Source: Gallionellaceae bacterium (GTDB lineage Bacteria > Pseudomonadota > Gammaproteobacteria > Burkholderiales > Gallionellaceae). From it: a stretch of DNA of 64,000 nt. The stretch lies in assembly GCA_030834965.1 (NCBI GenBank), contig JAUQWW010000040.1, positions 1-64,000 on the forward strand, given 5' to 3'. Position 1 is the first letter of the stretch; each line of letters opens with the position of its first letter. The notes below the pieces were generated by a model. The model did no database searches. It saw only the letters and a list, made by a program, of their open reading frames with translations, and was not told the origin of the DNA. Made by a program: the position numbers and the translations under genes. Positions 14,413 to 37,507 of this stretch are shown here, one piece after another.

Positions 14413-16209
14413 CTAATGATTTGTCATGCCGCTCATACGGTCACGGCTGCGCACGATGTCATCGGACCAGCTGCCGTCGCTGTCCACCACCGTGGGCTTG
14501 AGCAGCAGGATCAGCTCGCGTTTGTCCGTGCGCCTGCTGGTCTGGCCGAACAAGGGTTTCGACATGCCGGGCAGGCCGGACTTATCGTCAAAGGTCGCCT
14601 GGCGCATCAGGCCGCCGATGACCACGATCTGTCCATCGCGCGCGCGCACGATGCTGTCGGTTTCCGAGACCGAGGTCGATGCCATGGGAATGGTCCCGCC
14701 CGTTGCCCCTGTCTGGCCGAACAGCGCAAATTTGTTCTTCTCGGAAATACTGGTAACCGAAGGGTGCACATGCAGGATGATCTCATTGTGCTCGTTGATG
14801 TTCGGCGTCACGTCCAGTGCAATCCCCGAAAACATCGAAGAATAGAGAGGTGTAACCGTGCCAGCTGTGGTGGAAGTAGTGGTCGTTATGGTCGATGTCG
14901 TGGAAAACCCGGTAATGAAGTATTCGTCCGTCCCGACCTTCAATATGGCCTTCTGATTGTTCAAGGTCGCGATGCGCGGACTGGACAGCACATGCACGCT
15001 GCCTTGTGTCTCCAGGAAATTCAGCAGCGCGGCGAAATTGCTGGTCTGCAACGCCATGCCGAACATCGAGCCGGCAACGCCCGCCGCAGCGGCACCCAGA
15101 GTGGCGCCCGGCAAGGACGAAATCGCGGAGTTGCCCAGGGTTTGCGCCGCGCCCCCGGCAGCATTGGGCATCATCATGCCGTCCGGGGACAGCACCCCGA
15201 ACGAGCTTCTTCTGTTCGAGCCGAGGTTCGCGAAACCCGCCCAGTTCACGCCGGACTGATAGCCGTCATTCAGCTGCACCTCGACGATCTTGGCTTCCAG
15301 TATGACCTGGCGCTCGATCGAAATTTGCGAGGCCTTGAGGTAGGCCGTGACACTCTTCAATTCGTCGGGCATGGCGCGCACCACGATTACGCCGGACATG
15401 GAGTTGATCACCACACTGCGCCCGTTTTCGTTGCCGACGATGGCTTTCAGCGACGCCTCCAGCTCAGTCCAGAAGTTGGACTTGGGATTGGATGTCGTGA
15501 TGACCGTGCTGCTGCTTCTCCCCCCGCCACTCGTACCGGTGGTTCCAGTCGTCGCGCCTGTTGTGCCTGCTACGCCTGTGGTACCCGTTGTACCTGCTGC
15601 GCCCGTTGTGGCGGCGGTAGTGCCAGTCGTACCGGTCGTGCCGGTTGTCGTACCTCCGCTGCTTGACGATTGCACGCTCAGCATGGACGAACCGCCACGA
15701 TTTGCCGTCAGGTAATTCACCTGAAACAGCCGGGTTTGCAGCGTGAGCGGCTGAATGAAAATACGGTTGGCATCAACCTTGTATTCGTAGCCATACATGT
15801 CCCGGATTGCCTCCAGTGCCTCGAACACGGTCACGTCTTTCAGGTTGAGCGAGATGGCGCCGGTAATGCCGGGTGGCACCAGCATGTTGTAGCGCGTTCC
15901 GGATACGACCGCCATGAATACCTGGCTTGCCGGCGTGTTGTTGACGGTGAGATCGAACCGGGCTTCCAGCGGCTTGTTGTCGACCTTGGGCATCGTCATC
16001 ACAAGCGGCGGCAGCAGTGCATTGTTGACTGCTTCTATATTGATGGTTTTGGCGTTTTCCCGTTGCCGTATGCTTTCCCGGGCGACTGCGTCCATTTCGC
16101 CCTGGACTGCTTGCGCTGTCGCATTATGCGTCGCGCTTGGCGTGGCGCAGGCTGAAAGGCCGGCCAGTGCCAGCATTCCCAATGACAGCAGTTTAAGTTT
16201 TCGACTCAT
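14413..16209 (-). CDS. mshL: MSHA pilus outer-membrane secretin MshL
   Basis: Outer-membrane ring through which the pilus exits. The 598-residue product has a lipoprotein-type signal (LAGLSAC, Cys near 21), an STN-like periplasmic segment, and a C-terminal secretin domain containing VLSSPRIATLNNQKA and GGLMRQATFDDKSGLPG. Between residues about 178 and 230 is a Thr/Gly-rich tract made of short GTTGTTG-type units, encoded by a low-complexity repeat around 15525-15660. That tract may vary in length between strains. The start overlaps the mshK stop by four bases. Confidence 0.93.
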   Translation of the reverse strand: MSRKLKLLSLGMLALAGLSACATPSATHNATAQAVQGEMDAVARESIRQRENAKTINIEAVNNALLPPLVMTMPKVDNKPLEARFDLTVNNTPASQVFMAVVSGTRYNMLVPPGITGAISLNLKDVTVFEALEAIRDMYGYEYKVDANRIFIQPLTLQTRLFQVNYLTANRGGSSMLSVQSSSSGGTTTGTTGTTGTTAATTGAAGTTGTTGVAGTTGATTGTTGTSGGGRSSSTVITTSNPKSNFWTELEASLKAIVGNENGRSVVINSMSGVIVVRAMPDELKSVTAYLKASQISIERQVILEAKIVEVQLNDGYQSGVNWAGFANLGSNRRSSFGVLSPDGMMMPNAAGGAAQTLGNSAISSLPGATLGAAAAGVAGSMFGMALQTSNFAALLNFLETQGSVHVLSSPRIATLNNQKAILKVGTDEYFITGFSTTSTITTTTSTTAGTVTPLYSSMFSGIALDVTPNINEHNEIILHVHPSVTSISEKNKFALFGQTGATGGTIPMASTSVSETDSIVRARDGQIVVIGGLMRQATFDDKSGLPGMSKPLFGQTSRRTDKRELILLLKPTVVDSDGSWSDDIVRSRDRMSGMTNH

Positions 16210-30442: not shown

Positions 30443-30868
30443 CTATTTCTCCAGCGGCAAGCCTGCCTTCTGCCATGCCAGCACGCCGCCTTTCAAATTA
30501 TACGCCAGTCCGAACCCGCCCTTGCCCAGCACGGTGCACGCCGCCGCTGAACGCTGGCCGCTGCGGCAGACAACCAGAATGGGGTGCTCGCGGTAGCGCT
30601 CCAGTTCGCCAATGCGTTCACGCAGCTTGCCGAGCGGGATGAGTTTCGCATTCAGCAGGTGTCCTCCCTTGAATTCACTCTCTTCGCGCACGTCCAGAAT
30701 GACTGCATTCTTGTGGTTGATCAATTGCAGAGAAGCGGCAGTATCCACCTCCTTCACCCCGCGCATGCGGTTTCCCACAAACGACCACAACAGCATCAGG
30801 CCGCTGGTTACCGCCATCAGAATGGTCCAGATATTATCTTGTACGAACTGCAAGCTGATACTCCTCAT
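30443..30868 (-). CDS. Membrane-anchored rhodanese-like protein
   Basis: 141 residues: an N-terminal membrane helix (residues about 12-30) and a single rhodanese domain with ILDVREESEFKGGHL and the active-site loop VVCRSGQRSAAA, where the Cys is the predicted sulfur carrier. Probably handles sulfane sulfur near the inner membrane. The start lies 35 bases inside the end of the upstream ligase gene. Confidence 0.9.
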   Translation of the reverse strand: MRSISLQFVQDNIWTILMAVTSGLMLLWSFVGNRMRGVKEVDTAASLQLINHKNAVILDVREESEFKGGHLLNAKLIPLGKLRERIGELERYREHPILVVCRSGQRSAAACTVLGKGGFGLAYNLKGGVLAWQKAGLPLEK

Positions 30869-32618
30869 ATTTTTTGAGCGCGAATTCTAGCAGAGCAGCG
30901 AAATGCACGGGGTCTTTCTGCGCCAGGGTGCGCAACTTCTCGCGCTCCGCCGGGAATTCAGCTGGAAACGCCCAGATGGACCGCTCGATCTGCAATTGTG
31001 CCGCCGCCTGCTCGCCGGATAGCGCCATAAGAAACGCTTCGCGGTACGCCACGGGGCTGGCCGGCAGAAAGCGAACTACGCTGCTGTTCAGTTCGCGCTT
31101 AGCCCCCAGATGGTCGGCATTCACTTCTATCATGTTGCTCATCACCAACTCGGCATAGGGTTGCAGCAAGGCTTGCTTGTGCGTCGCCACCAAGCCCTCA
31201 TTTACGGCCCGGAAATAATTTTCATCAACAGCGGATGTCGGCCGCATGCTGCGCATGCCCTCCAGCTTGCGGTAACCCTGCCACACCTGCATCAATGACA
31301 GCACGCCAAGCAACAATATGGCCGCCACCGACAAACGCCCTACGCCACGCAATTCCAGACGATAGGTGGTATTGTCCAGCATGCCCAGGGTCAGCGCGGC
31401 CACACCAATGAAATAGGCATACCACAGCGGATATTCCACCAAGCTGTGGATACCCAACACCGCAAGCAATCCGTAACCCCACCAGTGGTAAAAGCTACGC
31501 GATGCGCTGTATGCCTGGCGCAGCCACAGCGCCAGCGTGCCGAACAATATGAACAGCCCAGCCACACCCATTTCTGCGGCGATCTGCATCACCATATTAT
31601 GGGCGTTGTTATATATGCCCTGAATGATGGTATTGCGCAGCGACGGGCCAAGCATAAAGTGTTGCCAGCCGAACTGGCCGAAACCCGCACCCAGCCAGGG
31701 ATTCTGCGTGAAGATCAACCACGCCTCGTGCCATAAATGCAGCCGGATACTGCGGCCGCCCGCCTGACTGGTCAGGCGCTCCACAGCGGTGACGGCGTCA
31801 GGAGGCCCGGCCAGCCAGGGAATCATCACGACCAGGTGCATCAAACCAAAACCCAGAAGCAACAACAGGCTGTAACGCAACAACGGCAGATACATGTTGT
31901 CGCGGCGCCGCCACAGAAAGGACATCGCTATCATGAATAGAAGGTACAACCACGAACTGCGTGACCCGCTCAATACCAGCACGAATAGCAGCGGTGCCGC
32001 CAGCAGCGCAACTAGCCACATGTGCAATCGCAAGCGCAGACGCAACAGGCCAAGCGAGATCAGCCCCAGCATGATGTAATTGGCATAGTGGTTGGGCTGC
32101 GCCACATTGCCATACACTGCACCAGAAACCTTGACTGCGACCAAGGTATCGAGAAACGTGTGCAACCGATAATATTGCAATATTCCTGCCATCGCATTCA
32201 GCTCCGCTCCCAGCAACAGGAACGCAGCCAGCACAGTGGCCAGTACAGGCAGGCCAAACTCCTCGCGTAACCTGTGGCCCAACATGATCAGCAGCGCCGC
32301 CCACATCAAATACAGGGACGTCAGTAGCGTATGGCTAAAATACGCCACCTTGCCCAGCGCAAACTGCACCACGATAAGAAGCATCAGCCCGATGGGCAGC
32401 ATGACGATGCGCGGAATTTCCGGCTGCTGCCAATAGCGCTTCGTCATCAGCAAAGGCATGGCGCACAAGCCGAGCATGGCGGCGCCCCATTCCTGATAGA
32501 AGGTGGTAAGCGGAAAGTGGTGGCGGTAATACAGAAACGGCAAAGCCCACATCAACCCGATAGACACCAGGCTGACGTGGGCGTAGCGTATCGGACCGAA
32601 TGCCGGTTTGCTTAGCAA
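30834..32618 (-). CDS. PglL/Wzy-family O-oligosaccharyltransferase or O-antigen ligase
   Basis: 594-residue inner-membrane protein with about 11-12 membrane segments, a Wzy_C core (QPNHYANYIMLGL, SGSRSSWLYLLF, and a large periplasmic loop with GFGQFGWQHF and NAHNMVMQIAAEMG) and a soluble C-terminal part. This organisation fits PglL/PilO-type ligases, which glycosylate type IV pilins and other proteins. A role in modifying the two MSHA pilins encoded some 10 kb away is an inference; lipopolysaccharide ligase is the alternative. Confidence 0.8.
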   Translation of the reverse strand: MLSKPAFGPIRYAHVSLVSIGLMWALPFLYYRHHFPLTTFYQEWGAAMLGLCAMPLLMTKRYWQQPEIPRIVMLPIGLMLLIVVQFALGKVAYFSHTLLTSLYLMWAALLIMLGHRLREEFGLPVLATVLAAFLLLGAELNAMAGILQYYRLHTFLDTLVAVKVSGAVYGNVAQPNHYANYIMLGLISLGLLRLRLRLHMWLVALLAAPLLFVLVLSGSRSSWLYLLFMIAMSFLWRRRDNMYLPLLRYSLLLLLGFGLMHLVVMIPWLAGPPDAVTAVERLTSQAGGRSIRLHLWHEAWLIFTQNPWLGAGFGQFGWQHFMLGPSLRNTIIQGIYNNAHNMVMQIAAEMGVAGLFILFGTLALWLRQAYSASRSFYHWWGYGLLAVLGIHSLVEYPLWYAYFIGVAALTLGMLDNTTYRLELRGVGRLSVAAILLLGVLSLMQVWQGYRKLEGMRSMRPTSAVDENYFRAVNEGLVATHKQALLQPYAELVMSNMIEVNADHLGAKRELNSSVVRFLPASPVAYREAFLMALSGEQAAAQLQIERSIWAFPAEFPAEREKLRTLAQKDPVHFAALLEFALKKYEEYQLAVRTR

Positions 32619-32824
32619 CTGCCGCCTTTGATCCCGAATTTTGCCAGAATATTATTCAGTGGGCAGAAGCGGGTAAAACCGCTCTGGAAAAGGTTCAGGC
32701 CGACAAAGGCGGTAAAAAAAAGAAAGTTCTTGCTGACGAATAGCGGACTGCCTTCTACGCCCAACGACAGGGAAAGCAGGACAAAAAATCCCGCAACAAT
32801 TCGAACGATACGTTCTGCATTCAT
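32612..32824 (-). CDS. DUF2892 (YgaP-type) membrane protein
   Basis: 70 residues with two membrane segments. The pattern ERIVRIVAGFF... and FTRFCPLNNILAKFG matches the DUF2892 family, which is the membrane domain fused to rhodanese in E. coli YgaP. It lies 31 bases after the RND gene and overlaps the ligase gene by 7 bases. A separate rhodanese gene follows further down the same strand. Confidence 0.85.
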   Translation of the reverse strand: MNAERIVRIVAGFFVLLSLSLGVEGSPLFVSKNFLFFTAFVGLNLFQSGFTRFCPLNNILAKFGIKGGSC

Positions 32825-32855: not shown

Positions 32856-35800
32856 TTACCCGAATTTCTTGTACAGCGTGGCGTAATACAGCACCGGGAT
32901 CACCACCAGCGTCAGCAAGGTGGAAACCAGGATGCCGAAAATCAGCGCGATGGCCAGCCCGTTGAAGATCGGATCATCCAGGATAAACAGCGCGCCCAGC
33001 ATGGCGGCCAGCCCGGTCAGGATAATAGGTTTGGCACGCGCGCTGGCTGCCGCAATGACGGCCTGCTGCAACCCCACGCCGTCGCGCAATTGCAGATTGA
33101 CGAAGTCCACCAGCAGGATGGAATTGCGCACGATGATGCCGGCCAGCGCGATCATGCCTATCATGGAAGTCGCGGTGAATTGCGAACCGAGCAAGGCATG
33201 CCCCGGCATCACGCCAATGATGGTGAGCGGGATCGGCGCCATGATGATGAGCGGCACCAGATAGCTCTTGAATTGCGCCACCACCAGCAGATAGATCAGC
33301 ATCAACCCTACCGCATAGGCAATACCCATGTCGCGGAAGGTCTCGAAGGTCACCTGCCATTCGCCGTCCCACTTCAGCGCATAAGCCGCATAAGGATTGG
33401 AAGGCGTATTGAAATACCAGCTTTGCAGCATTCCGCCCTCTGCCAGCTCCTTATTCTTGAGCTTGCCATCGATCCCAAACATGCCGTACAGCGGGCTGTC
33501 CAGCTTGCCTGCCATGTCGCCGAACACATACACCACTGGCAGCAGGTCCTTGTGATAGATCGGGTAATCGCGCTCCACCGGCACGACCTGCACCAACTCG
33601 GACAATGGAACCAGTACATCCCCTTGGGCAACACCATCGCGTGCGCGCACCTTGAGCTTGAGCACATCTTCGATGCGGCTGCGGTTTTCCGCAGGCAGGC
33701 CGAGGCGCAACGGCAATGCATATTTTGCGGTATCGTCGTGCAAAGAGGTCACATTCTGCCCGGCCAGCGCGACATGAATTGCATCCACGATGTCGCGCGG
33801 CGCCACGCCGAGCAGGGCCGCCTTGCTCTGCAGCACATGCAGCACCAGCTTGGGCGCGGCTTCAGTTACGCTGTCGTCGATAGCGACGATATCCGCGGTG
33901 TTGGCGAACTGCGCGCGCACTATGCCCGCCACCTTGCGTGCGCCGTCATAATCCGGCCCGTATATCTCCGCCACGATGGGCGACATTACCGGCGGGCCAG
34001 GCGGCACCTCGACGATTTTCACCTTCGCCTTCCACTTTTCTGCAATCGCCTCGATCGGTTCACGCACGCTGCTGGCAATCTGATGGCTGCTGCGCTCGCG
34101 CTCATGCTTGGCTCTCAGGTTTACCTGAATATCGCCCTGCTCGCTGGCTGTGCGCAGATAATACTGGCGTACCAGCCCATTGAAATTGATCGGGGCAGCC
34201 GTGCCTGCATAGCCCTGATAGTCTGTCACGTCCGGCACCGTGGCGAGGTATGCGCCAATCTCGTGCAGCACGGCGGAGGTCTGCTCCAGGGCCGTGCCGC
34301 TCGGCATGTCCACCACCACCTGGAATTCGGACTTGTTGTCGAACGGCAGCATTTTCAGCACCACCAGCTTGACCCCCGCCAACGCCACGGCAAGAAACAA
34401 TCCGGCAAAAATGGCCAGCCAGAGTTTGCGCCGGGCCGATTTGCCTTTTTCGCGATTGAGAAAGGGGGTCAGGCGCGCACTGAAGAAACGCGTCAGCGCG
34501 CTATCATGTTCATCCTTGGTTGCCGCATGGTGAGAAGCGGAAAAGCGCAACGCCAGCCACGGGGTGATGACAAACGCCACTGCCAGCGAGATCAGCATGC
34601 CCATGCTGGCGTTGATCGGAATGGGGCTCATATACGGCCCCATCAGGCCGCTGACAAACGCCATCGGCAGCAATGCGGCAATCACCGCGAACGTGGCCAG
34701 AATGGTTGGACCGCCGACTTCGTCCACAGCTTCCGGGATGACCTCGGACAGAGGCTGGCCCTTTGACAGTACGCGCTTTCGGTGGATGTTCTCAACTACC
34801 ACGATGGCATCGTCCACCAGTATGCCGATGGAAAAGATCAGCGCGAACAGCGACACGCGGTTAAGCGTAAAGCCCCACGCCCACGAGGCAAACAGCGTGA
34901 CTGCGAGCGTAAGTATCACCGCAACACCCACAATGAAAGCCTCGCGCCGGCCCAGCGCCATCCACACCAATGCGATCACCGCCGTGGTGGCGAAGATCAG
35001 TTTCTGGATCAGCTTCATCGCCTTGTCGTTGGCGGTCTCGCCGTAGTTGCGCGTGACGGTGACATGCACGTCGGAAGGGATCACGCTGCCCTTCAACTCT
35101 TCCACGCGCTTGAGCAGCTTATTGGCAACTTCGACCGCATTTTCGCCCGGCTTCTTGCTCACTGCCACGGTCACAGCGGTGAATTCGCCTCTGGCCTGGA
35201 TTCCCTTGTCAGCCGCCGCTGCGCCCGCTCCCAGCCATACATAGCTGGATGGCTGATCGGCGCCATCCAGCACCTCCGCCACATCGCGCAAATAAACCGG
35301 CTTGCCGCCGGCCACGCCCACCACCAGCTGGCTTACTTCCTGCGCATTGCTCAGGAAATTGCCGGTCTGCACCAGCACTTCGCGGTTGTCCTGCGTCAGA
35401 CTCCCAGCATTCTGCGATATGTTGGCAGCCTGCAAGGCGGCACGCACATCCTGCACCGACAAATGATACGCATTGAGCGTTTCCGGATTGAGCAGCACGC
35501 GCACCATACGCTGGGTTGCCCCTATGGTGTGCACTTCACGCGTCCCCTTTACACGCTTCAGCTCGGACTCGATTGCATGCGCTACCTGGGTCAGTGCCAG
35601 CCCGCCGCCGACTGCTTCCTCGCGCCACAGCGTGAGCGCCACGACTGGCACATCGTCTATGCCCTTGGCCTTGATCAGCGGCGGCAACACGCCCAGCGTG
35701 GGTGGCAGCCAATCGGCATTCGAATTGATTACATCATAGAGCTTGACCATGGAAGGGCCGTGCTGCTCACCTACCTTGAACTGCACGGTAAGCACCGCCA

Positions 35801-36077
35801 TGCCCGGCTGCGACACCGAGTACACATGATCCATCCCGGCAATCTGCGACAGCACCTGTTCGGCCGGAGTAGCGACGGTACGCGCCACATCCTGTGCAGA
35901 TGCGCCGGGATAGGCGATCAGTACGTTCGCCATGGTGACGTTGATCTGCGGCTCTTCCTCGCGCGGCGTGACCAGCACGGCGAATAAACCCAGCAGCATC
36001 GCTACCAGCGCCAGCAACGGCGTGATCTGGCTGTGCAGGAAATGCTTGGCGATGCGCCCGGAGATTCCCATACCCAT
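32856..36077 (-). CDS. RND efflux transporter permease
   Basis: 1,073-residue inner-membrane proton-driven pump of the AcrB/HAE superfamily. N-terminal helix, two large periplasmic loops and twelve membrane helices; TM4 carries the acidic pair in GILVDDAIVVVENI. The N-terminus (TPREEEPQINVTMANV) is typical of a subgroup of RND pumps with short adaptors. Its start overlaps the adaptor stop by one base. No outer-membrane channel gene is adjacent. The substrate is unknown; the sulfide-type regulator upstream suggests a link to sulfur stress. Confidence 0.93.
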   Translation of the reverse strand: MGMGISGRIAKHFLHSQITPLLALVAMLLGLFAVLVTPREEEPQINVTMANVLIAYPGASAQDVARTVATPAEQVLSQIAGMDHVYSVSQPGMAVLTVQFKVGEQHGPSMVKLYDVINSNADWLPPTLGVLPPLIKAKGIDDVPVVALTLWREEAVGGGLALTQVAHAIESELKRVKGTREVHTIGATQRMVRVLLNPETLNAYHLSVQDVRAALQAANISQNAGSLTQDNREVLVQTGNFLSNAQEVSQLVVGVAGGKPVYLRDVAEVLDGADQPSSYVWLGAGAAAADKGIQARGEFTAVTVAVSKKPGENAVEVANKLLKRVEELKGSVIPSDVHVTVTRNYGETANDKAMKLIQKLIFATTAVIALVWMALGRREAFIVGVAVILTLAVTLFASWAWGFTLNRVSLFALIFSIGILVDDAIVVVENIHRKRVLSKGQPLSEVIPEAVDEVGGPTILATFAVIAALLPMAFVSGLMGPYMSPIPINASMGMLISLAVAFVITPWLALRFSASHHAATKDEHDSALTRFFSARLTPFLNREKGKSARRKLWLAIFAGLFLAVALAGVKLVVLKMLPFDNKSEFQVVVDMPSGTALEQTSAVLHEIGAYLATVPDVTDYQGYAGTAAPINFNGLVRQYYLRTASEQGDIQVNLRAKHERERSSHQIASSVREPIEAIAEKWKAKVKIVEVPPGPPVMSPIVAEIYGPDYDGARKVAGIVRAQFANTADIVAIDDSVTEAAPKLVLHVLQSKAALLGVAPRDIVDAIHVALAGQNVTSLHDDTAKYALPLRLGLPAENRSRIEDVLKLKVRARDGVAQGDVLVPLSELVQVVPVERDYPIYHKDLLPVVYVFGDMAGKLDSPLYGMFGIDGKLKNKELAEGGMLQSWYFNTPSNPYAAYALKWDGEWQVTFETFRDMGIAYAVGLMLIYLLVVAQFKSYLVPLIIMAPIPLTIIGVMPGHALLGSQFTATSMIGMIALAGIIVRNSILLVDFVNLQLRDGVGLQQAVIAAASARAKPIILTGLAAMLGALFILDDPIFNGLAIALIFGILVSTLLTLVVIPVLYYATLYKKFG

Positions 36078-37138
36078 TATTTTTTCGCCTGTTGTGCCAG
36101 CGCCATGCCCGCCTTGATGGCATCCAGCGCGACACGCTCGCCCGAATTCAATCCGGCCAGCACTTCAATCTCGTCCTGACCTGCTGTCTGGCCCAGGCGT
36201 ACCTGGCGCAGCTTCACCACGCCCTTGTCATCGACTACATATACCGCCACCACCTCGCTGCGGCGTACGACTGCACTGGCCGGGACAAGCAGCTTGTTCG
36301 CCTTGCCCACCACAAAATGCACGCGCACGAACATGCCGGGGTATACGTTTCCCTCCTTGGCGCCTGCTTCACTGGCCGGCAGGTAGACGCGCACCTGCGT
36401 GCTGTGCGTGCGTGCGTCGGCGGCGGGCTGCACCGACACCGAAACAGCCTGCGCCCGGCGCTTGAGCGAGGGCAGTTCCACTGTTGCCTGCGGGCGCGCA
36501 CCGATGTCTGCCAGCCTGTCCTGGGGCACGCTGACGATGGCGCGCATCTCCGCCGGATCGAAGCCGGTCATCAGCGGCTTGCCGACCGTGACCATTTCGC
36601 CCAGCTCCACCAGGCGCGCCGCCACAATCCCGGCGTAGGGCGCAACCACGGCGGTGTAGCCATGGGCCAGCGCCGACTGCCCGGCGCCGGCCTCGCTCGC
36701 CGCGGCCTGTGCCAGCGCTACCTTGTAATCGGCCTGCGCCTTGTCCAGCGCGGCCTGGCTGATGAATTTCTGTGCAAACAACTGGCGCGCGCGCTCATAA
36801 TTGGACTTGGCATTCTGCATGGCGGCCTGCGCCTGCATCACCTGCGCCTGGCTGCCTGCCACCGCCTGCGCCGCCTCGCGCTCGTCGATACGCAGGATAA
36901 CCTGGCCCTTCCTGACGCTATCGCCGACATCGAAGTTGATTTCCTTCACGCGTCCGGCAATTTGTGCCGACACGGTGGATTGCCGGACCGCCTCCACCAC
37001 ACCGTCGGCACTATAGGTTTGTGCCACCTCGCGATACTGCGCCGGCGCAACGGCAAGCTGCTCCGCCGCCTGTGCAGGCAGCATAGCCACTCCAATAGCA
37101 GAACCCAGTACCAGCAAACACAGCGCGCGATGCTTCAT
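36077..37138 (-). CDS. RND efflux periplasmic adaptor subunit
   Basis: About 353 residues: signal peptide ending PAQA, barrel-sandwich lipoyl-like halves (GRVKEINFDVGDSVRKGQVILRIDE and the later AVVAPYAGIVAARLVELGEMVTVGKPL), a coiled-coil hairpin near 85-160 and a beta-barrel domain. Links the pump to an outer-membrane channel. Start at 37138 (MKHRALC). Its promoter overlaps an 18-bp palindrome. Confidence 0.93.
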   Translation of the reverse strand: MKHRALCLLVLGSAIGVAMLPAQAAEQLAVAPAQYREVAQTYSADGVVEAVRQSTVSAQIAGRVKEINFDVGDSVRKGQVILRIDEREAAQAVAGSQAQVMQAQAAMQNAKSNYERARQLFAQKFISQAALDKAQADYKVALAQAAASEAGAGQSALAHGYTAVVAPYAGIVAARLVELGEMVTVGKPLMTGFDPAEMRAIVSVPQDRLADIGARPQATVELPSLKRRAQAVSVSVQPAADARTHSTQVRVYLPASEAGAKEGNVYPGMFVRVHFVVGKANKLLVPASAVVRRSEVVAVYVVDDKGVVKLRQVRLGQTAGQDEIEVLAGLNSGERVALDAIKAGMALAQQAKK

Positions 37139-37166: not shown

Positions 37167-37199
37167 TATTAGAATATTCTAATACACAACAAAAAGCAA
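37167..37199 (-). promoter_or_regulatory. Promoter with ArsR-type operator of the efflux operon
   Basis: A perfect 18-bp palindrome, TATTAGAATATTCTAATA (37167-37184), lies between the regulator gene and the adaptor gene. On the minus strand TTGCTT (37194-37199), a 17-base spacer and TATTCT (37171-37176) form a plausible sigma-70 promoter whose -10 box lies in the palindrome. A repressor bound there would block transcription. AT-rich operators of this form are typical of ArsR/BigR proteins. Confidence 0.75.
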
Positions 37200-37204
37200 T
37201 CCGG

Positions 37205-37507
37205 CTAGGTGGTACAAAACAAATCGCGCATCATTTCCACCAGCTTGAGCGTGCGCGGATTGCCGATGCGGTAATACACCCGGTTGGCATCCTTGCGCGT
37301 GCTGAGCACCCCCTTGTCGCGCAGGATAGCCAAGTGCTGCGAAATATTGCTTTGTGTCGTTCCGACATCCGCCACGATGTCCTGCACGCTGACCTCCTTG
37401 GCGCCGAGCACGCACAGTATCTTCAGGCGCAATGGATGGGCGATCGCCTTGATTGCCAGCGATGCCTGCAGGATGTCCTCATCACGGTCGATCAACTTTT
37501 TTGACAT
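37205..37507 (-). CDS. ArsR-family regulator, BigR/SqrR-like persulfide sensor
   Basis: 100-residue winged-helix repressor. Helix-turn-helix VGTTQSNISQHLAILRDKGVL is typical of ArsR proteins. No CxC metal site (ELCVCDL type) is present. Two cysteines remain: Cys32 (KILCVLG) and Cys98 (LFCTT). Their spacing of 66 is the same as Cys42/Cys108 in BigR and Cys41/Cys107 in SqrR, where they form a di- or tetrasulfide in response to persulfides. GGAGG before ATG 37507 fixes the start. It is upstream of and on the same strand as the efflux genes. Confidence 0.85.
   Translation of the reverse strand: MSKKLIDRDEDILQASLAIKAIAHPLRLKILCVLGAKEVSVQDIVADVGTTQSNISQHLAILRDKGVLSTRKDANRVYYRIGNPRTLKLVEMMRDLFCTT

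Follow-up and report, generated by a model that had tools for sequence, protein, structure and literature searches.

The ArsR-family protein encoded in the window (the whole stretch of 64,000 nucleotides, or 64 kb, that was analysed here) is interpreted as a persulfide-type dithiol repressor of the neighbouring adaptor-pump-DUF2892 operon and of a small regulon with a role in sulfide stress, a reading to which a probability of roughly 0.8 is assigned. Its core, namely a persulfide-type ArsR, an operator at the pump promoter and a function connected to sulfur, is supported at the level of sequence by an invariant cysteine pair, by the relationship to HlyU, BigR, SqrR and YgaV, by an operator that is tied to the pump, and by a candidate regulon comprising pump, TolC, rhodanese, DsrC and SQR genes. 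The following features of the locus were annotated:

37205..37507, minus strand: ArsR-family repressor, 100 aa (PF01022 and NF033788 over cut-off)
37167..37184, no strand assigned: putative operator, perfect 18-bp palindrome TATTAGAATATTCTAATA with the core ATTAG-N6-CTAAT (conservation, shuffles, genome search)
36077..37138, minus strand: RND periplasmic adaptor, MFP (TIGR01730 over cut-off, PF16576)
32856..36077, minus strand: RND inner-membrane pump of an uncharacterised subfamily, 1073 aa (PF00873, 481 bits)
32612..32824, minus strand: DUF2892/YgaP-like_TM small membrane protein (PF11127 over cut-off)
30834..32618, minus strand: Wzy/PglL-like O-antigen ligase, 594 aa (PF11846, PF04932)
30443..30868, minus strand: membrane-anchored rhodanese, YibN-type (PF00581), first gene of a rhodanese-grxC-secB-gpsA cluster

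The arsR gene extends from the ATG at 37507 to the stop codon at 37205 and has the ribosome site GGAGGGAGG. The protein contains exactly two cysteines, Cys32 and Cys98, and their spacing of 66 residues is shared with BigR (Cys42/Cys108) and sHdrR (Cys50/Cys116). The CxC in alpha3 or the His/Asp/Glu site in alpha5 by which metal-sensing ArsR/SmtB proteins are recognized could not be found, alpha3 being free of CxC and alpha5 of a His/Asp metal site. The sequence-only reading, which had claimed two cysteines with a BigR-like spacing and no metal-binding CxC, was thus correct in these points. Among 132 distinct orthologs, Cys32 and Cys98 are present in all 132 and are the only cysteines in 124; a histidine in alpha5 is absent from 130, and the region of the recognition helix, QSNISQHLAILRDK, hardly varies.

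In a ranking of PDB sequences, HlyU, BigR, SqrR and YgaV were found on top, followed by a drop to Rv0081 and NolR and then to PagR and SmtB. The predicted model (pLDDT 86) matches the folds of HlyU, NolR, SqrR, BigR and YgaV, with NolR interleaved at a high rank, and places Cys32 within a helix of residues 25-34 (alpha2) and Cys98 at the end of a helix of residues 84-97 (alpha5). A cysteine pair in alpha2 and alpha5 is the feature by which the persulfide-sensing ArsR cluster was defined in a network analysis (PMC10509353). The protein carries this pair of the RSS-sensing group (SSN cluster 4: SqrR/BigR/HlyU/YgaV), and persulfide sensors are its closest characterised relatives according to both the PDB sequence and the fold matches. 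Fold and cysteine pair are shared with SqrR, BigR, HlyU, YgaV and sHdrR, although the identity to these repressors is only about 28-37%. With 73.1 bits against a curated cut-off of 155 for the BigR equivalog model NF040642, the protein does not qualify as a BigR ortholog by the NCBIfam standard.

The palindrome TATTAGAATATTCTAATA is located between the arsR stop codon and the ATG of the adaptor gene at 37138 and is the longest perfect one in the 64-kb window. When the 66-bp intergenic stretch was shuffled 100,000 times, a perfect palindrome of at least 18 bp arose in 6 cases. The claim of a perfect 18-bp palindrome at 37167-37184 ahead of the adaptor-pump operon was therefore borne out. Its further claim of an overlap with the -10 box is plausible: a strict sigma-70 promoter scan at the locus gave no match, yet across 67 sites a TTG is kept at -16 to -14, in the position of a -35 hexamer relative to a TATNCT that follows at 17 nt within the palindrome. 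This predicted placement resembles that of BigR and YgaV, for which an operator at the -10 region has been described. The sequence itself, ATTAG-N6-CTAAT, is distinct from the ATTC-N8-GAAT motif suggested for SqrR and YgaV. Upstream of arsR no good operator was found at the loci compared; the best site there usually has 2-6 mismatches, for which reason autoregulation by ArsR was rejected.

An ArsR ortholog is encoded in about 125 of 150 genomes of the family Gallionellaceae (Gallionella, Sideroxydans and other Gallionellaceae among the named relatives). The core with at most one mismatch is present behind arsR in 54 of 63 loci with a pump, whereas it was detected in 1 of 26 loci without one (1/10 and 0/16), at a background of 0.3-1.8% in shuffled sequences. 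The loci with a pump comprise 25 of 30 family loci that kept it, 18 of 19 loci outside the family with an orthologous pump, and 11 of 14 loci with a non-orthologous pump, mostly of Thiobacillus and Hydrogenophilales types. In the last group, an RND pump with 38-40% identity follows arsR (L147, L149, L153, L158, L159, L162, L166, L167, L176, L178, L185 and L190), and in four loci examined the adaptor of the non-orthologous pump is preceded by a TolC-type or similar gene. The class-level matches are gammaproteobacterial-type loci, 19 of 20 of them without a nearby pump, and no operator was found between arsR and the rhodanese gene in the pump-less gammaproteobacterial loci.

Where gene orders have changed, the site stays with the adaptor. 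This was observed in one locus with an SQR-like gene between arsR and the adaptor (L061 in genome G085) and in three in which the adaptor is placed elsewhere (L204, L206 and L211). An extended pattern of the operator was found in 94 of 100 family genomes with an ArsR ortholog versus 5 of 20 without (120 genomes in total; Fisher p 1.3e-10, uncorrected for shared ancestry), and its reversed control is rare in the family genomes.

Sites away from arsR were located by pattern searches. Among the matches listed, all nine exact off-locus sites precede a single-domain rhodanese gene (4), a TolC-type channel gene (2) or a displaced adaptor gene (3), and the one-mismatch sites among the matches listed include two more TolC genes. 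In the host genome (3.07 Mb), there are only four perfect core sites, compared with none for the reversed control. One of them is the site at the pump operon, one lies 30 nt before the ATG of a TolC gene (contig C41), and two are located in contig C101. Furthermore, a one-mismatch site in the host precedes a gene of the DsrC/TusE family (contig C74; TIGR03342 and PF04358 over cut-off), which was seen in this one genome only. The pump, the outer-membrane channel that its operon lacks (TolC) and a sulfur carrier (DsrC/TusE) thus have the site in common.

Several other matches were set aside. The two perfect sites in C101, at 11168 near an integrase-type gene and at 15949, look unrelated and have no clear target, and one-mismatch sites by genes for a DEAD-box helicase, a Rieske protein, a CcoG-like protein, YbeY/CorC and a helicase-like protein were not accepted as targets. 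Two near-identical TolC-type genes in the host are broken at contig ends (C41:59839-60222, C73:60186-60569 and C45:6-1061), and among these the operator was seen at the C41 copy only. In one relative (L207, about position 2511), a one-mismatch operator is located upstream of the gene for cytochrome bd oxidase subunit I (CydA); control of cytochrome bd by YgaV has been published for E. coli (PMC9774250).

The genes for the DUF2892 protein and the rhodanese are located downstream on the same strand as arsR, as had been claimed (PF11127 and PF00581). The distance from arsR to the rhodanese gene amounts to 6.3 kb, with the pump operon and, unmentioned in the sequence-only reading, the PglL-like gene in between. 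The latter is found between the DUF2892 and rhodanese genes in most Gallionellaceae-type loci and is missing from the stretch between arsR and the rhodanese gene in many relatives outside the family; this ligase, of the O-antigen or protein glycosylation kind, is probably a neighbour and not part of the response. In the family loci read, arsR is nearly always found between gpmI-envC-ctpA and rhodanese-grxC-secB-gpsA. The corresponding order in E. coli is gpsA-secB-grxC-yibN opposite gpmM-envC, by which the rhodanese of the window is YibN-type by position; it has its own N-terminal hydrophobic stretch.

This synteny weakens the proposal that the DUF2892 protein and the rhodanese are the two halves of YgaP, since the rhodanese is a YibN-type protein encoded behind a PglL-like gene. 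The proposal is partly rescued by relatives with contiguous loci. In gammaproteobacterial relatives, arsR is followed directly by the rhodanese gene or by DUF2892 and rhodanese genes (L143, L257-L260), and where the pump is missing, the DUF2892 gene stands directly after arsR. The contiguous arsR-DUF2892-rhodanese arrangement in relatives indicates a genuine linkage of long standing between the three genes, and the pump seems to be a subsequent, lineage-specific insertion into this block. Compared with ygaVP of E. coli, the locus thus has in common an ArsR gene with genes for a DUF2892/YgaP-like membrane protein and a rhodanese nearby. It differs in that the domains are encoded by separate genes instead of a rhodanese fused to the YgaP membrane segment directly after the regulator, that a pump operon is inserted, and that the rhodanese has YibN synteny.

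The pump does not reach the cut-off of any NCBIfam RND model, with MdtB/C, AcrB, MexB and others all far below, and it scores higher on multidrug-type models than on the HME-RND model TIGR00914 for CusA/CzcA (238 bits versus a cut-off of 701). Orthologs with 57-86% identity are encoded in 116 of 349 genomes of the order. For 40 pump loci outside the family, a DUF2892 gene was found nearby in 35 and an SQR-like gene in the cluster in 10. In some lineages that lack an ortholog of this ArsR, the pump has as its neighbour a different ArsR in which the two cysteines are also present (L269, L287, L291, L295, L300). In other Burkholderiales-type genomes, an ArsR of another type, which carries CxxxC in alpha5, takes this place (L288, L289, L290, L293, L296, L297, L299). 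A BigR-type dithiol sensor is therefore not in charge of the pump in all cases; the CxxxC type may be another sensor for the same stress.

Further sulfur genes accompany the system. Within the family, an SQR-like gene is located between the adaptor and pump genes in four loci (L040, L049, L052, L063) and after arsR in L061; the protein of L040 scores as type III SQR-like, below the cut-off. The host contains a dsr cluster (G000:C7:25165-36928, L239), whose gene names derive from reading the sequence and whose DsrC copies were confirmed by TIGR03342. It ends with a DsrC paralog, an SQR gene and a siroheme-synthase-like gene, and this SQR is 65% identical to the protein of L040. In total, four DsrC/TusE homologs are encoded in the host genome, while no dioxygenase of the Blh/ETHE1 type was found there over the cut-off (best score 27.6 bits). 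In Azospira suillum, moreover, an operon with the gene order MFP-SQR-RND has been reported to be induced by H2S (PMC5358917). The candidate sulfur-gene regulon and the result of the dioxygenase search support the proposal of the sequence-only reading that a sulfide or persulfide response makes use of an RND pump and not of a dioxygenase.

Taken together, the following mechanism is proposed. The reduced ArsR dimer would bind ATTAG-N6-CTAAT over the -10 region and block transcription of the adaptor-pump-DUF2892 operon. Sulfur oxidation by SQR and dsr, or external sulfide, would raise the level of cytoplasmic persulfide, upon which a polysulfide bridge would join Cys98 and Cys32 and ArsR would leave the DNA. 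The regulon would then be switched on, consisting of the RND pump and adaptor, the TolC channel, the DUF2892 protein and, in the host, a DsrC/TusE-like sulfur carrier, with a single-domain rhodanese or SQR as the carriers in relatives. The pump would help to remove from the cell some compound connected with sulfide stress. Binding of the site by this ArsR, repression as the outcome, persulfide as the inducer and an action of the pump in sulfide stress are what we infer from the cysteine pair, the operator with its conservation and genomic targets, and the co-located sulfur genes.

The preferred guess for the pump substrate is sulfane sulfur or some product of sulfide stress, with metal-sulfide as a minor one. 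A more far-reaching version, in which RND, DUF2892 and TolC form a dedicated exporter of persulfides, polysulfides or zero-valent sulfur from SQR and rhodaneses and in which a persulfide-sensing ArsR controls pump, channel and sulfur carriers, is possible and regarded as doubtful.

An ArsR that acts as a general thiol redox sensor for peroxide or electrophiles, like MexR or RexT, together with an ordinary multidrug pump, is considered improbable. The pump does resemble RND proteins of the MdtB/MexB type, and two-cysteine regulators such as MexR answer peroxide as well as sulfane sulfur (PMC11211675). HlyU, the nearest solved relative of the present ArsR, however, shows a reaction with persulfide but none with H2O2 (PMC10509353), and the members of the regulon handle sulfur.

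Sensing of a metal or metalloid by ArsR, with the pump exporting heavy metals in the manner of CzcA/CusA, appears very improbable. It would fit the membership in the ArsR family, the frequent occurrence of metal systems among ArsR-neighboured RND pumps, the pairing of some pump relatives with an ArsR of the CxxxC-alpha5 type, and a proposal made for Azospira suillum. In this organism, the operon Dsui_3440-3443 is highly expressed under H2S oxidation and gave a fitness signal; its deletion left the H2S oxidation rate unchanged, and the authors propose metal-sulfide export (PMC5358917). Its order of MFP, SQR, RND and small protein genes is that of relatives L269-L272 and L281, a likeness by gene order alone, and the paper mentions no ArsR regulator (PMC5358917). 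Against metal sensing stand the ArsR sequences described above, without CxC in alpha3 and nearly always without a histidine in alpha5, the low score of the pump on the CusA/CzcA model, and operator targets that are rhodanese, TolC, DsrC and pump genes and not metal genes. It is hardly credible that the linkage of arsR and rhodanese is nothing but leftover gene order and that ArsR is unconnected with the pump. Although the rhodanese gene belongs to a conserved yibN-grxC-secB-gpsA block with the pump as a lineage-specific insertion, the operator moves with the pump and not with arsR, is lost with the pump, and is also found before non-orthologous replacement pumps.

The persulfide-type repressor proposed here is of a known sensor type, and its setting is in part known as well. 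Induction of an RND pump system by sulfane sulfur has been described for MexR-mexAB-oprM and MarR (PMC11211675). These regulators belong to the MarR family, which is unrelated to ArsR, and no comparable sulfur-gene regulon is described in the available part of that paper. Li et al. (2025) reported RND pump, sqr and rhodanese genes beside sulfane-sulfur ArsR repressors (PMC12423496); for the RND cases, the accessible part of the article gives no operator, regulon or mechanism. The main candidate target, an RND pump with TolC, distinguishes the present system from SqrR, BigR, HlyU, YgaV and sHdrR. Within the literature searchable here, the operator ATTAG-N6-CTAAT, the regulon of pump, TolC, rhodanese and DsrC, and the retention of the site with a non-orthologous pump appear to be new.

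The system bears on how cells dispose of excess sulfane sulfur and on the cargo of the many uncharacterised RND pumps in environmental bacteria. Across iron and sulfur oxidisers, one operator links an RND pump, TolC, a rhodanese and a DsrC-like carrier, and, by gene order, SQR. The regulon is thereby defined and open to testing, and the pump becomes a clear candidate for efflux under sulfide stress. The appearance of an MFP-SQR-RND operon with no known regulator in an H2S transcriptome may also find its explanation here. If the pump indeed exports sulfur, chemolithotrophs would have an outlet for sulfane sulfur in place of its oxidation by a dioxygenase.
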